In this document: positions 7,691-13,187 of the stretch, piece after piece
How positions within the stretch are numbered: the first letter of the stretch is position 1
How the letters are laid out: the number at the start of each line of letters is the position of its first letter
Origin: Corynebacterium xerosis NBRC 16721 = ATCC 373
GTDB taxonomy: Bacteria; Actinomycetota; Actinomycetes; Mycobacteriales; Mycobacteriaceae
Direction of reading: 5' to 3'
DNA length: 64,000 nt
Assembly: GCF_001552415.1 (NCBI RefSeq)
Contig: NZ_BCRD01000003.1
Coordinates: 124,001 to 188,000, forward strand
The notes under the pieces: model-generated
The model's input: only the letters and a program-made list of their open reading frames with translations
Database searches by the model: none
Told to the model about the DNA's origin: nothing
Made by a program: the position numbers and the translations under genes

Positions 7691-9238
7691 TCAGTTCTGC
7701 TCGGGCTTCACGATCGGGAACAGCACCGTCTCGCGGATGCCCAGGCCCGTGAACGCCATCAGCAGGCGATCGACGCCCATGCCGACGCCGGTGGTCGGGG
7801 GCATGCCCTGCTCCATGGCGTGGAGGAAGTCCTCGTCGAGGACCATCGCCTCGTCGTCGCCGCCGGCGGCCAGGCGGGCCTGGTCCTCGAAACGCTCGCG
7901 CTGGATCACCGGGTCGACCAGCTCCGAGTAGCCCGTGGCCAGCTCGAAGCCGCGGACGTAAAGGTCCCACTTCTCGGTGACGCCCGGCTTCGAGCGGTGC
8001 TGGCGGGTCAGCGGCGAGGTCTCGACCGGGAAGTCGCGGACGAAGACCGGGCCATCGAGCTGGTCCTCGCACAGCAGCTCCCAGATCTCCTCCACGAGCT
8101 TGCCGTGGCCCCAGCCGCCCTTGGCCGGCACGTCCAGGCCGATGACGTCGGCGATCGCCTTGAGCTCGTCGACCGTGGAGTCGACGGTGACCTCCGGCTG
8201 GCCGGGGAACTTGCGGGCCAGCGCCTCGTTGAGCGAGGGGTACATCTCCAGCTGCTTCCACTCGCCGCCGAAGTCGTACTCGGTGCCGTCGGCCAGCGTC
8301 ACCGTCGTCGAGCCGAACACGGCCACGGCGATTTCCTGGATGACCTCCTGCACGGTGCGCGCGGAATCGTCGTAGGTGCCGTAGGCGTCGTAGTACTCGA
8401 GCATGGCGAACTCCGGCGAGTGCGAGGAGTCGATGCCCTCGTTGCGGAAGTTGCGGTTGATCTCGAAGACCTTCTCCATGCCGCCGACGACGCAGCGCTT
8501 CAGGTACAGCTCCGGCGCGATGCGCAGGTACAGGTCCAGGTCCAGGGCATTGGAGTGCGTGACGAACGGGCGGGCCGCCGCGCCACCGTGGAGGGTCTGC
8601 AGCATCGGGGTCTCGACCTCGAGGAAGCCGCGGCGCTCCAGCGCGTGACGCAGCTCGCGGATGACCTTGATGCGGGTGATCGCGTTGTCGCGGGCCTCCG
8701 GGCGCATGATCAGGTCGGTGTAGCGGTGGCGGACGCGCTGGTCCTCGCTCATGTCGGAGTGCGCGAACGGCAGGGGGCGCAGCGACTTCGACGCCATGGT
8801 CCACTCGGTGGCCATGACGGACAGCTCGCCGCGGCGCGACGCGATGACGCGGCCGGTGATGATGACGAAGTCGCCCATGTCCACGTCGGCCTTCCAGGCG
8901 GCCAGCGCGTCCTCGCCGACCTCCTTCAGGCTGAGCATGGCCTGCAGCTGCGTGCCGTCGCCCTCCTGCAGCGTGGCGAAACACAGCTTGCCGGTGTTGC
9001 GCACGAAGATGACGCGGCCGACGACGGTGACGACGTCCTGCGTCTCCTCCCCCGCCTCCAGCTGCCACTGGCTGCGGACCTGCGCCAGCGTGTGCGTGCG
9101 CGGGACCTCGACCGGGTACGCCTCGCCGCCGTCGGCCAGCAGCTTCGCGCGCTTGTCGCGGCGGATGCGCAGCTGCTCCGGCAGGTCGGTGGTGGGCTTC
9201 TGGGCCTGGTTCGGGGCGGGGTTCTTCGCGTCAGTCAC
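7691..9238 (-). CDS. lysS: Lysyl-tRNA synthetase, class II
   Basis: Charges tRNA-Lys. At 515 residues it has the class IIb arrangement: an OB-fold anticodon-binding domain (about 60-180), then the catalytic domain with motif 1 near [10 protein letters not shown], motif 2 [16 protein letters not shown] near 265-280, and motif 3 [13 protein letters not shown] near the C-terminus. The GTG start at 9238 has GAGGA 4 bases upstream. It is monocistronic here. Confidence 0.96.
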
Positions 9239-9315: not shown

Positions 9316-10974
9316 CTATTCGCCGGCGCGCCGCCAGCCGCGCCGCAGGTCATCGACGATGGCGGGTTCGCTCAGGGTGCTGGGTTCGAGATCGCGGGGT
9401 GCGGAGTCCGCGCCGAAGACCATGGAGGCGGCGGCGACGTCGTCGGTGAAGTAGCGCAGCGCAGGGGCACCGGGCGGCAGTTCGACGCGCGGGCCGTTGG
9501 TGTCGGGGCGGGTGGCGTCGTCAAGCAAGGGGGCGTCAAGCACAGGCGCACCGCCGAGTTCCGCCAGCCCGAAGCCCCAGTCGCCGAAGGTCGGGACGTG
9601 GACGTGATACGGCGTGGTCGCCCATCCGGCCGCGCGCATGGTGGAGATGGTGCGCCAGTAGGCGTCGGGCGTGGAGAAGGGCGAGCCGGATTGGACGACC
9701 AGGCGTGCACCGGGCGCGGCGACGCCGCGGATGAGGCCGTAGAACTCCTGCGAGTACAGGCGGCCGAGGACCGCCGTGTCGGGGTCGGGCAGGTCGGCGT
9801 AGATGGCGTCGAAACCGCCGGCGGGGATGTTCCGGAGTTCCTTCGAATGGCCGCGCAGCCAGGCGAAGGCGTCGTCGACGACGACGTCGACGCGGGGGTC
9901 GTCCAGCGAGCCGCCGTTGTCGGCCGCCAGCTCGGTGCGGGCCAGCTCGATGACGCGGGGGTCCAGCTCGACCTGGACGATGCGCTCGATGCCGGGCATC
10001 CGCAGCAGCTCGCGGGCGGCCAGCCCGTCGCCGCCGCCGAGGATCAGCGCCGTGCGGGTGGATTCGCGCAGGGCGGGATAGACCAGCGATTCGGTGTAAC
10101 GGTATTCGTCGCGGCTGGAGTACTGCAGCCCACCGTCGAGGAAGAGGCGGGTGTCCTTGCCGGACCGCGTGATGACGATCTCCTGGTAGTCGCTGCGCTC
10201 CGCGTGGACGATCGGCGCGGCGAACAGCGCCTGGCGGGCGGTGACCTCGATGTGGCGGACGGAAAAGAGCAGCGCGACCAGCGCCACAGCTGCCGCGACG
10301 AGGACGGAGACCGCCGTGACCAGCGCCCGGCGCGTGAGCATCCGGCGCAGCAGCAGCACGGCGATGAGCAGCGCCGCGGCGACGTTGATCAGGCCGGTCA
10401 CCGCCGTGCCGCGCAGCATGCCGAACACCGGCAGCACGATGAACGGCCACGACAGGCCGCCGATGAGCGCCCCCAGGTAGTCGGCTGCGTTGAGATTGGC
10501 CACGACCGCGCCCGATTCGGCGGCGGTGGTGCGGCGGCCGTGCTGCAGGAGCGTCATCAGCAGCGGGACCTCCGCACCGACGAGCACGCCGATGGCGATG
10601 GTGGCCACCGTCAGCGCCGCCAGCGAATCGCCGGTGACGGCGAAGGACAGGTACAGCAGCGTCGCGGAGAATCCGCCGACCAGGCCCAGCGCCGCCTCGA
10701 CGCCGAGGAACGACGCCGCCGCCCACTTCACCAGGGGCTTGGCCAGCAGCGCGCCGAGCCCCAGCGCCGCGACGTACCCGGCGACGATGACCGAGGTGGC
10801 CACGACGTCGCCGCGGCCCAGCGAGGCGGACAGCGCCAGCAGCGCGAGCTCGTAGATCAGGCCGCAGGCCGCGCACGCCGCCACCGCCGCCAGCAGCAGC
10901 GCCCGCCAGAGCCTGCCGGGAGGGGCGTCGGCGCCGGATTCGGTGCGGGCTTCTGCGCCGGCACTCACCGTCAC
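9316..10974 (-). CDS. speE: Membrane-anchored spermidine synthase-like aminopropyltransferase
   Basis: A 552-residue protein with about seven hydrophobic segments in residues 20-235 followed by a class I methyltransferase-fold spermidine synthase domain (about 255-520). Family motifs are DGGLQYSSRDEYRYTE, LILGGGDGLAARELL (nucleotide loop), VELDPRVIELAR, DDAFAWL and YADLPDPDT, where the usual active-site DSTDP is DLPDP. The enzyme would transfer an aminopropyl-like group at the membrane face; the acceptor is unknown and may not be a free polyamine. The GTG start at 10974 overlaps the DUF350 stop by 4 bases. It is the last gene of a five-gene operon, and no speD is nearby. Confidence 0.85.
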   Translation of the reverse strand: MTVSAGAEARTESGADAPPGRLWRALLLAAVAACAACGLIYELALLALSASLGRGDVVATSVIVAGYVAALGLGALLAKPLVKWAAASFLGVEAALGLVGGFSATLLYLSFAVTGDSLAALTVATIAIGVLVGAEVPLLMTLLQHGRRTTAAESGAVVANLNAADYLGALIGGLSWPFIVLPVFGMLRGTAVTGLINVAAALLIAVLLLRRMLTRRALVTAVSVLVAAAVALVALLFSVRHIEVTARQALFAAPIVHAERSDYQEIVITRSGKDTRLFLDGGLQYSSRDEYRYTESLVYPALRESTRTALILGGGDGLAARELLRMPGIERIVQVELDPRVIELARTELAADNGGSLDDPRVDVVVDDAFAWLRGHSKELRNIPAGGFDAIYADLPDPDTAVLGRLYSQEFYGLIRGVAAPGARLVVQSGSPFSTPDAYWRTISTMRAAGWATTPYHVHVPTFGDWGFGLAELGGAPVLDAPLLDDATRPDTNGPRVELPPGAPALRYFTDDVAAASMVFGADSAPRDLEPSTLSEPAIVDDLRRGWRRAGE

Positions 10975-11576
10975 GACAGTGCGACGGCGTTGATCAGCCC
11001 GATCACCACGAGCGTCACCCCGGCCATCGCGGCGCGGGGCCGCAGCTTGGCGTCCATGACCACGTCGCGGAACCGCCCGGGCACCAGCGCCTCGAGCACG
11101 AGCAGCGCCAGCGCCTGCGCGGCGATGCCGATGGCGCCGTAGATGAGGGTCTCGGAAATGCCCACCCACAGCCGATCGTCGGAGGCCCGGATGACCGAGA
11201 AGATGATCATGCCCAGCGCGATCTGCTGTGCGGCGGCGAGAGTGGCGGCGCCGGCGCGGTTTTCCACGAAGACCAGCTCGCGGAGTTTGCCGGGGGTCAG
11301 CAGGTCGAGGACGACGAAACCGACCACGAGCACGAGGATGCCCGCCGCGAAGTAGGCGATGGTGGCCGGGACGCCCACCGCCAGCTGGTCGGCGAGCGTC
11401 GGCGCCACGACGTCCTGGGCGGTGAGAAAGCCGGGTGCGTGGCCGGAGTCCTGGGCGATGGAGGTCATGTCGGGATTCCTTGTCTCGAACGGGACGGATT
11501 CTGGGGCCGGTGCCGGGGCGGGTGCTGGGCCGGATTCGGTGACGGATGCCGGCGCGGGAACGTGGGCGGCGGTCAT
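10971..11576 (-). CDS. DUF350 membrane protein
   Basis: A 201-residue integral membrane protein with the DUF350 (YjfL) pattern: two repeats of two transmembrane helices (about 65-85, 110-130, 143-160, 180-198) with a short polar loop after each pair. The first 45 residues are a Pro/Ala-rich extension. ATG 11576 is chosen because it overlaps the DUF4247 stop by 4 bases as in every other junction of this operon; an internal ATG at 11468 would give a family-sized protein. The function is unknown; relatives occur beside PspA and polyamine-type enzymes in other bacteria. Confidence 0.8.
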   Translation of the reverse strand: MTAAHVPAPASVTESGPAPAPAPAPESVPFETRNPDMTSIAQDSGHAPGFLTAQDVVAPTLADQLAVGVPATIAYFAAGILVLVVGFVVLDLLTPGKLRELVFVENRAGAATLAAAQQIALGMIIFSVIRASDDRLWVGISETLIYGAIGIAAQALALLVLEALVPGRFRDVVMDAKLRPRAAMAGVTLVVIGLINAVALS

Positions 11577-12007
11577 TTGGCGCCTCCCCAGGACCCCGAG
11601 TTGCCGCCGGATCCACTGGCCGGGGAGCCCGGCCGGAAGCCGGGGCCGAGGAAGATGTACCCGCCGTTGGAGTAGGTGCGGTCGAGGCTTTCCGCCCGGA
11701 TGGTGCATTCGCCCGCGGTGCGGCCGACGACGATGATGCGGTTCCTGGTGCGCAGGTACGCGGACCCTTCGTGCTCGGCGTAGCTCTGGTGGTTGATGTC
11801 GTCGCGCAGTTCGCGCCCGACCTGCACCGGGTCGGCGGTGCCGCAGCTCCAGGTCGTCATGTCGCCGACCGAGTTGCCGTTGCCGTGCCGGTCGGAGATG
11901 GTCCGCTCCACGGTGGCGGATCCGGCGACGGCTCCGCCGATGATGGTGACGATCCCGAACACGATGAGGATCACGCCGAGAATGCGCATCGGCCCCATGC
12001 CCTTCAT
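11573..12007 (-). CDS. DUF4247 membrane-anchored protein
   Basis: A 144-residue protein with one N-terminal membrane segment (about 8-30) and a soluble DUF4247-type domain containing SCGTADPVQVGREL, RTRNRIIVVGRT and ECTIRAESLDRTYSNGGYIFLGPGF. The tail is Gly/Ser-rich. ATG 12007 overlaps the upstream stop by 4 bases. The membrane segment could act as an uncleaved signal, placing the domain outside; this is inferred. No biochemical role is known to me. Confidence 0.78.
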   Translation of the reverse strand: MKGMGPMRILGVILIVFGIVTIIGGAVAGSATVERTISDRHGNGNSVGDMTTWSCGTADPVQVGRELRDDINHQSYAEHEGSAYLRTRNRIIVVGRTAGECTIRAESLDRTYSNGGYIFLGPGFRPGSPASGSGGNSGSWGGAK

Positions 12008-12558
12008 CGCGTCGCCCCCATCCGCCACGAAGAGGACGTGGACACGACTTCACCGCCACCGCGCGCGTCCGGGTACAGGTGCCACGTCCGCCACCGGTGG
12101 CCGCCGGGCAGCGCTTCACCGTGCACGGCCGTGATCGCCCCGTCGCAGCCGGGGAACTCGGCGACCAGGGCCGACGGGTCCTCGCCGAGGGAACGGACCT
12201 GCTTGACGACGGAACCGAAGCCCGCGACGTCCAGCCTGTCCACGTGCACGCCGGTGCCGCGTTCGGCCGGGTCGACGGCGTGGAGCGCCACTCCGCCGAT
12301 CGCGGTGCACGACAGCTCCTCCACATGGGCGGGAGCGGCGGCGGCGCCGACGTAGGCGACGTGGGAGGAACCGAGGATGCCCAGCGTGAGCGGCGGCGAC
12401 CCCGCCGGGGCGTCCGGATGCGCGGCGATGGTCAGATGCGCGAGCATCGGCGGCACGGCCCCGCCGATGGACAGGCGCAGGTCCGCGGCCGTCACGTCGG
12501 CGAAGGGGACGTCGAGGGCGATCGGCCCGGCCGCCGTCATGGTGGAGGTGGCGCTCAT
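12004..12558 (-). CDS. DUF2617 family protein
   Basis: A 184-residue soluble protein beginning with the family-like segment ALDVPFADVTAADLRLSI and containing LGILGSSHVAYV, GVALHAVDPA and a DGAITAVHGEA segment. It has no signal peptide or membrane helix, so it is probably cytoplasmic. It overlaps both neighbours by 4 bases. The GCTTGACGACG word at 12201 reads as VVK here. DUF2617 proteins have no known activity. Confidence 0.75.
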   Translation of the reverse strand: MSATSTMTAAGPIALDVPFADVTAADLRLSIGGAVPPMLAHLTIAAHPDAPAGSPPLTLGILGSSHVAYVGAAAAPAHVEELSCTAIGGVALHAVDPAERGTGVHVDRLDVAGFGSVVKQVRSLGEDPSALVAEFPGCDGAITAVHGEALPGGHRWRTWHLYPDARGGGEVVSTSSSWRMGATR

Positions 12559-13187
12559 CGTCGCGCCCCTCCGTTGTCCTCCGGGCCGAACCGGCCGTTG
12601 GGGTCCGTCGGCGCGGAGTACACGGTCAACTCGCCGGGCAGGATGCGGTGGCCGAACGATGCCTCCCACGGCCCCTGCGAGGACCACTGCTCCAGACCGA
12701 GCAGGCGACAGTCCGAAGATTCGAAGTCGATGTAGACCATCGACCCCTCCGGCGGCAGGCCGGTGGTGCCCAATGCCCGGTAGCGGGCCTCGCCGCGCTC
12801 CTGCTCCCAGTATTCGACGCCCTCGATGACCATCGGGTTCGTCGGCTGGAAATTGCCCGGGTAGCGGCGCCACCAGGTCAATTCCACCGCACCCTCGTCA
12901 TCCTCGACGCCGAACCACGAACCGTCCGGGCCACCGTCGAGCAGATGCTCCCACCAGCGGAACGGGCCCTGGCTCAGCTCCAGGCTGCCACGCACCACGT
13001 GATCGTGGCCGCCGCGCCCGATGATCGCGCCCGGCGCGATGGACGTCGGCCCGAACTTGCGGAACTCTCCGGTCAGCAGAGGATCGTTGTACCTGGGGCC
13101 GGTCTCGCCGTCCTTCTTCTTGCCCATGACGACCAGCACCACGCCCACGATGACGATGATCACCCCCACCACGATGATGAAGTTCAT
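12555..13187 (-). CDS. DUF4178 domain protein with N-terminal membrane anchor
   Basis: First gene of the operon, 210 residues: a hydrophobic helix at 3-21, a Lys/Asp turn, then a beta-rich DUF4178 domain (about 45-200) with IAPGAIIGRGGHDHVVRG, WWEHLLDGG, SWFGVEDDEG, ELTWWRRYP and a TRP-rich end (LEQWSSQGPWEASFGHR). The domain is expected to face the cytoplasm if the helix is an N-out anchor, but topology cannot be fixed by eye. The ORF starts at ATG 13187, 175 bases after the sugar kinase, so the promoter probably lies in 13188-13362. Confidence 0.78.
   Translation of the reverse strand: MNFIIVVGVIIVIVGVVLVVMGKKKDGETGPRYNDPLLTGEFRKFGPTSIAPGAIIGRGGHDHVVRGSLELSQGPFRWWEHLLDGGPDGSWFGVEDDEGAVELTWWRRYPGNFQPTNPMVIEGVEYWEQERGEARYRALGTTGLPPEGSMVYIDFESSDCRLLGLEQWSSQGPWEASFGHRILPGELTVYSAPTDPNGRFGPEDNGGARR

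Follow-up and report, generated by a model that had tools for sequence, protein, structure and literature searches.

DUF2617 as a putative stand-in for S-adenosylmethionine decarboxylase in an operon with a membrane-fused spermidine synthase of Corynebacterium xerosis

Operons in which a spermidine synthase fused to seven transmembrane segments (7TM-SpeE) is encoded together with DUF350 and DUF4178 proteins were described in a 2024 mSystems survey of the phage shock protein (PSP) system. That survey also presents a variant lacking PspA, in which DUF4247 (CCP45395.1) and DUF2617 (CCP45394.1) replace a pair of CesT/Tir and PspA proteins; it terms DUF2617 a predicted beta-sandwich enzyme and already suggests aminopropylation of other substrates (PMC11237479). 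Here we analyzed a 64,000-nucleotide stretch of the genome of Corynebacterium xerosis NBRC 16721 = ATCC 373 (contig NZ_BCRD01000003.1, positions 124,001 to 188,000; hereafter the window), where five consecutive minus-strand genes at 13187..9316 form the operon DUF4178-DUF2617-DUF4247-DUF350-SpeE. The proteins CCP45395.1 and CCP45394.1 we take to be Rv2599 and Rv2598 of Mycobacterium tuberculosis H37Rv, from the operon Rv2597-Rv2601. We propose that in operons of this kind DUF2617 does the work of SpeD, the S-adenosylmethionine (AdoMet) decarboxylase.

The window operon contains the same families as the published variant (DUF4178, DUF2617, DUF4247, DUF350 and 7TM-SpeE) in a block without PspA. 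Its five-gene order adds one more example of that variant, and a block without PspA accordingly represents the described state. A sequence-only reading of this DNA had named the parts and their kinship to PspA-type operons correctly, both of which appear in PMC11237479. It had also stated that there is no PspA partner, which is true of the locus; genome-wide, two PspA homologues are encoded elsewhere, without block genes beside them. PspA was without a match at any of the block loci inspected (one phmmer query), and the PSP envelope-stress hallmark of a PspA encoded in the operon is absent from the window block. What the passages of the survey that we read do not contain is a proposal that DUF2617 replaces AdoMet decarboxylase, and we found no proposal of SpeD replacement in the accessible portions of the open-access literature naming DUF2617. 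The operon is already published; DUF2617 as a stand-in for SpeD is the new, testable point.

A SpeE-like protein without a recognizable SpeD

By its profile match, the window SpeE is a standard 7TM-fused polyamine aminopropyltransferase (NF002956, PRK03612). Its score against NF002956 is 579 bits, above the cut-off of 472, over profile positions 11-520 of 522, nearly the full length of this model of membrane-fused aminopropyltransferases, and PF01564 matches residues 293-470. Soluble spermidine synthases (TIGR00417; PDB 7xif, 1uir and others) share the catalytic domain and its motifs, but the window protein differs in its membrane fusion and reaches only 108 bits against the TIGR00417 cut-off of 250. 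Its nearest SpeE relatives, sharing about 70% identity with it, come from C. lactis and C. amycolatum.

The donor-site Asp of the GGGDG motif and both DxxDP acids are intact. The DLPDP sequence had been thought to replace the usual active-site motif; we rejected the idea of an unusual active site, because D[LMFY]PDP with both acids retained is the norm in nearly all 7TM-SpeE members, including proteobacterial copies next to speD. In a plant spermidine synthase the GGGDG Asp favours decarboxylated AdoMet (dcAdoMet), and its change to Ile abolished synthase activity and gained slight methyl transfer (PMC3725402). Given that the window SpeE retains this Asp and the DxxDP acids, aminopropyl transfer by it is plausible on sequence grounds. 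Because the active-site motifs are also identical in copies beside speD and beside DUF2617, dcAdoMet as the donor would be the simplest reading.

Normally, dcAdoMet is made by SpeD. With PF02675, no SpeD was found near the operon, in agreement with the sequence-only reading, or in the rest of the genome, whose 2.68 Mb are listed as 100% complete, which led us to reject a SpeD merely located elsewhere; the aminopropyl donor is therefore left without a known source. That reading overlooked this gap, and the mechanism it proposed had no donor. The system it called stand-alone is better read as one that carries DUF2617 in place of speD. The same PF02675 search was without a match in 13/16 block carriers of a class-level sample, 49/56 of a family-level sample and 36 of 40 named carriers.

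Within the SpeE family, a well-supported clade that includes the window protein has YTE at the donor site, whereas most others have YHE, independently of SpeD status. This clade (loci L024-L026, L030 and L041-L089) comprises mycobacteria, corynebacteria, Rhodococcus, Pseudonocardia, Blastococcus and Frankia.

DUF2617 and SpeD across genomes

The two samples consisted of 148 Actinomycete genomes (class) and 151 genomes (family), with 7TM-SpeE in 30 and 56 of them, respectively. All 30 class-sample genomes over the cut-off have either DUF2617 (27) or SpeD alone (3), and the seven family-sample carriers that lack DUF2617 are exactly the seven with SpeD. Pooled, the 79 genomes with 7TM-SpeE divide into 69 with DUF2617 only, eight with SpeD only, two with both and none with neither. 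No genome in either sample has DUF2617 without 7TM-SpeE (counting the frameshift-split SpeE of G190), and 12/12 DUF2617 loci outside DUF4247 blocks adjoin 7TM-SpeE.

The SpeE tree shows four changes of DUF2617/SpeD state: between Actinomycetes and other phyla, in Nocardia, in genome G078 and in Mycolicibacterium lyk4-40. G078 is sister to Nocardioides luteus, and Mycolicibacterium lyk4-40 to Mycobacterium OTB74. In Nocardia, G078 and Mycolicibacterium lyk4-40, DUF2617 is cleanly missing between DUF4178 and DUF4247 while SpeD is present in the genome (at the Nocardia sp. AG03 locus DUF4178 was not seen). The independent pairs agree with replacement in 3/3 cases, or 4/4 if the other phyla are counted.

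Outside the Actinobacteria, we considered 11 7TM-SpeE loci from plasmid or chromid records, one of them a fragment. speD lies within 7 kb in nine of these, with the Burkholderia loci carrying it on the opposite strand, and DUF2617 in none (0/11). The gene order is DUF4178-DUF4178-hypothetical-DUF350-SpeE-flavin adenine dinucleotide (FAD) oxidoreductase-speD in Novosphingobium (L244) and SpeE-speD-hypothetical-TelA-DUF4178-hypothetical-DUF350 in Alteromonas (L246). Such proteobacterial operons have 7TM-SpeE, DUF350 and DUF4178 in common with the window operon, but they include speD along with different partners, SPFH or TelA and an FAD oxidoreductase, and lack DUF2617 and DUF4247. Among 14 control genomes, C. 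glutamicum and Haloferax volcanii have a SpeE match but lack SpeD, as does Lactococcus with a weak SpeE match that has no counterpart for NF002956; DUF2617 matched exactly C. glutamicum and H. volcanii. A DUF2617 search of plasmids gave no match, and a search of genome contigs with a single DUF2617 sequence retrieved no relatives; the contig search for relatives was redone with a SpeE alignment.

The block itself, judged by DUF4247, is present in 16/148 class-sample and 56/151 family-sample genomes. DUF350 and SpeE lie beside DUF4247 at the block loci inspected; across the actinobacterial loci inspected, DUF350 adjoins SpeE in 95/95 and DUF4247 adjoins in nearly all. Gene order conserved to this degree far exceeds what chance would give. 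Among 11 sample genomes of the genus, the block has a patchy distribution, with two (G000 and G252) carrying it.

Some of the SpeD copies have contexts of their own. Several of those examined in Nocardia each form a fusion with a small SpeE of their own and adjoin an ornithine decarboxylase (ODC)-like gene, and the Mycolicibacterium lyk4 genome has a cassette of ODC and a SpeD-SpeE fusion. These compact cassettes (L018, L253, L254 and L255) apparently represent a separate, classical spermidine pathway. The SpeD read from one of the two Streptomyces genomes with both genes (L020, 1489-1869) lacks the usual Cys; this Streptomyces-type homologue, found also at L019, has LLAYG in its place and adjoins a phosphopantetheinyl transferase-like gene. 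Judging from this sequence, it is possibly not an AdoMet decarboxylase.

The DUF2617 protein and the layout of the operon

In an alignment of 47 DUF2617 members, followed by 12 further members, Asp21, Ser65, His66, Glu80, Trp156, His160 and Tyr162 are invariant, a set that is enzyme-like in its composition. The C-terminal half scores 17.4 against the SpeD profile, compared with 10.0 +/- 1.7 for column-shuffled versions (0/100 as high); in this alignment, His160-x-x-Pro163 falls opposite the His-Thr-Trp-Pro of SpeD. As a yardstick for true relatives, SpeD scores 18.3 against human AdoMet decarboxylase over the same region (compared as one sequence). SpeD and DUF2617 share a similar place in the operon, complementary occurrence and a comparable local pattern of Ser-His with a later His-x-x-Pro. 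The direct comparison of DUF2617 with the human enzyme (hhalign) was at best equal to shuffled controls and was set aside. Two AlphaFold2 models of DUF2617 have predicted local distance difference test (pLDDT) values of 93 and 92. Listings of PR-10 and thioesterase folds in Foldseek (TM about 0.2) were rejected as noise, as was a single hmmsearch match in the PDB (E 0.58), taken as chance; Foldseek of one model against viral models returned nothing significant.

All five products score well over the Pfam cut-offs (89 bits for DUF4178, 101 for DUF2617, 57 for DUF4247, 72 for DUF350 and 92 for Spermine_synth), which bears out the five-gene operon first read from the open reading frames. The four short overlaps reported at its junctions are present in the sequence, three as ATGA and one as GTGA (Table 1). 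The overlap of DUF4247 and DUF350 hinges on the start of DUF350, for which Met37 inside the reading frame is another possibility; the 201-residue reading has a Pro/Ala-rich extension of about 60 residues ahead of the domain. Three products had been given membrane segments, a count that a simple hydropathy scan raises to four: one segment each in DUF4178 and DUF4247, four in DUF350 and about seven to eight in SpeE, with none in DUF2617. No lipobox Cys was seen in the window DUF4247 protein.

Table 1. Coordinates of operon features in the window
Feature	Position	Strand	Remarks
DUF4178 protein, first operon gene	12555..13187	-	210 aa; PF13785 E 3e-25; one predicted N-terminal membrane segment
ATGA overlap DUF4178/DUF2617	12555-12558	-	4 bases, sequence
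DUF2617 protein	12004..12558	-	184 aa, predicted soluble; PF10936 E 1e-28; proposed donor-supplying enzyme replacing SpeD
Ser65-His66 codons of DUF2617	12361..12366	-	LG[AS]SH motif; invariant in alignment
His160 codon of DUF2617	12079..12081	-	WxTWHxYP motif; invariant in alignment
ATGA overlap DUF2617/DUF4247	12004-12007	-	4 bases, sequence
DUF4247 protein	11573..12007	-	144 aa; PF14042 E 3e-15; one predicted N-terminal membrane segment
ATGA overlap DUF4247/DUF350	11573-11576	-	4 bases, sequence
DUF350 (YjfL-type) membrane protein	10971..11576	-	201 aa from overlapping ATG; PF03994 E 9e-20, domain residues 65-200
GTGA overlap DUF350/SpeE	10971-10974	-	4 bases, sequence
SpeE-like protein	9316..10974	-	552 aa from GTG; predicted N-terminal multi-helix membrane region and aminopropyltransferase domain
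GGGDG motif of SpeE	10024..10038	-	sequence; conserved in relatives
DLPDP motif of SpeE	9781..9795	-	sequence; usual DxxDP form of 7TM-SpeE family

The block is flanked by a sugar kinase gene about 175 bases upstream and lysS about 77 bases downstream. In the adjoining lysine--tRNA ligase (7691-9238), a further high-scoring match covers the C-terminal half of the LysX (lysylphosphatidylglycerol synthetase fusion) model and leaves out the N-terminal half of that model. An Rfam scan of the window gave no matches.

Proposed role and alternatives

We suggest that the operon could encode a self-contained module for aminopropyl transfer at the cytoplasmic membrane. In this scenario, SpeE would be anchored by its own membrane region, probably held together with DUF350, and would move the aminopropyl group from dcAdoMet to an acceptor. 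DUF2617 would supply dcAdoMet, most likely by decarboxylation of AdoMet, the task of SpeD in the related operons that other phyla have; its candidate active-site residues are the invariant Ser65, His66, Glu80 and His160. DUF4178 and DUF4247 may be accessory parts. We give this reading as a whole a probability of roughly one half. Our confidence that DUF2617 functionally replaces SpeD is moderate. The more specific proposal is held tentatively, at slightly less than even odds: that DUF2617 (PF10936) is a new AdoMet decarboxylase, structurally unrecognized or extremely diverged, which replaces SpeD as the donor source for the aminopropyltransferase in Actinomycetes and perhaps haloarchaea.

Several observations weigh against these proposals. 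Cys84 of DUF2617 is nearly, not strictly, invariant. The hhalign probability for DUF2617 and SpeD is only 2-3%, the N-terminal half of DUF2617 compares with SpeD at chance level, and three control families reach 12.6-15.2 against SpeD. Foldseek searches of the PDB with both AlphaFold2 models gave no match at E <= 0.001, and AdoMet decarboxylase is absent among the 50 matches listed. Neither a family match nor a fold match links DUF2617 to SpeD, PF10936 being the only profile that matches it; given the weak hhalign result, the chance-level N-terminal half and the lack of a structural match, we do not file it under SpeD and treat homology between the two as a possibility. The Tritonibacter and Rhodovulum loci have neither speD nor DUF2617 nearby, and two Streptomyces genomes hold both genes. 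Only three or four independent events underlie the complementarity, too few for a sign test to reach significance, and the Fisher value of 1.7e-9 ignores kinship and is not to be taken at face value. In the DUF2617-SpeE pairs of the Streptomyces core (L210-L213, L220 and L221), SpeE shows Q changed to R, an altered ELDP and, in two cases, a damaged DxxDP, while every conserved DUF2617 residue is retained. Such an intact DUF2617 beside a partly eroded SpeE is hard to explain if DUF2617 feeds only that SpeE.

The few events, these Streptomyces pairs and the two genomes with both genes would all fit a complementarity that is largely chance and shared ancestry, with DUF2617 an accessory of 7TM-SpeE that serves another purpose and a donor source that is unrelated or missing. 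We nevertheless consider this explanation unlikely, given that "neither" genomes number zero in both samples, that clean excisions of DUF2617 lie next to SpeD-free sister loci, that equivalent operons of other phyla carry speD, and that both control genomes, C. glutamicum and H. volcanii, fit replacement. Somewhat more doubtful is the full reading made from the sequence alone, an envelope-stress system that aminopropylates a membrane lipid, peptide or protein. The membrane fusion of SpeE, the co-conserved DUF350 and the PspA-containing relatives published in PMC11237479 speak for it, and it is compatible with dcAdoMet supply by DUF2617, a proposal that specifies no acceptor. However, PspA is missing from the block loci inspected with the one phmmer query, block genes are missing from the vicinity of the genome's own PspA copies, and plain polyamine synthesis at the membrane would also be possible.

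A 7TM-SpeE without SpeD might instead take AdoMet itself as donor and transfer a methyl or 3-amino-3-carboxypropyl group; DUF2617 would then be its partner and could, for example, decarboxylate the product. Most carriers do lack SpeD, and the YTE clade, to which the window SpeE belongs, matches the Gln-to-Thr change toward putrescine N-methyltransferase. Yet the Asp that favours dcAdoMet is retained, the motifs equal those of copies beside speD, and YTE is uncoupled from SpeD, being found with SpeD in Mycolicibacterium lyk4 while many YHE carriers lack SpeD. We regard AdoMet as donor as the least probable of the three alternatives.

From the perspective of polyamine metabolism, a SpeE-like protein without a recognizable AdoMet decarboxylase is found in many mycobacteria and corynebacteria, including C. 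glutamicum, and in Haloferax volcanii. With DUF2617 named as the candidate to fill this gap, the matter is open to direct tests. The proposal, if correct, would assign a function to the conserved DUF2617 family, and an unrelated-looking enzyme would substitute for another inside a conserved operon.

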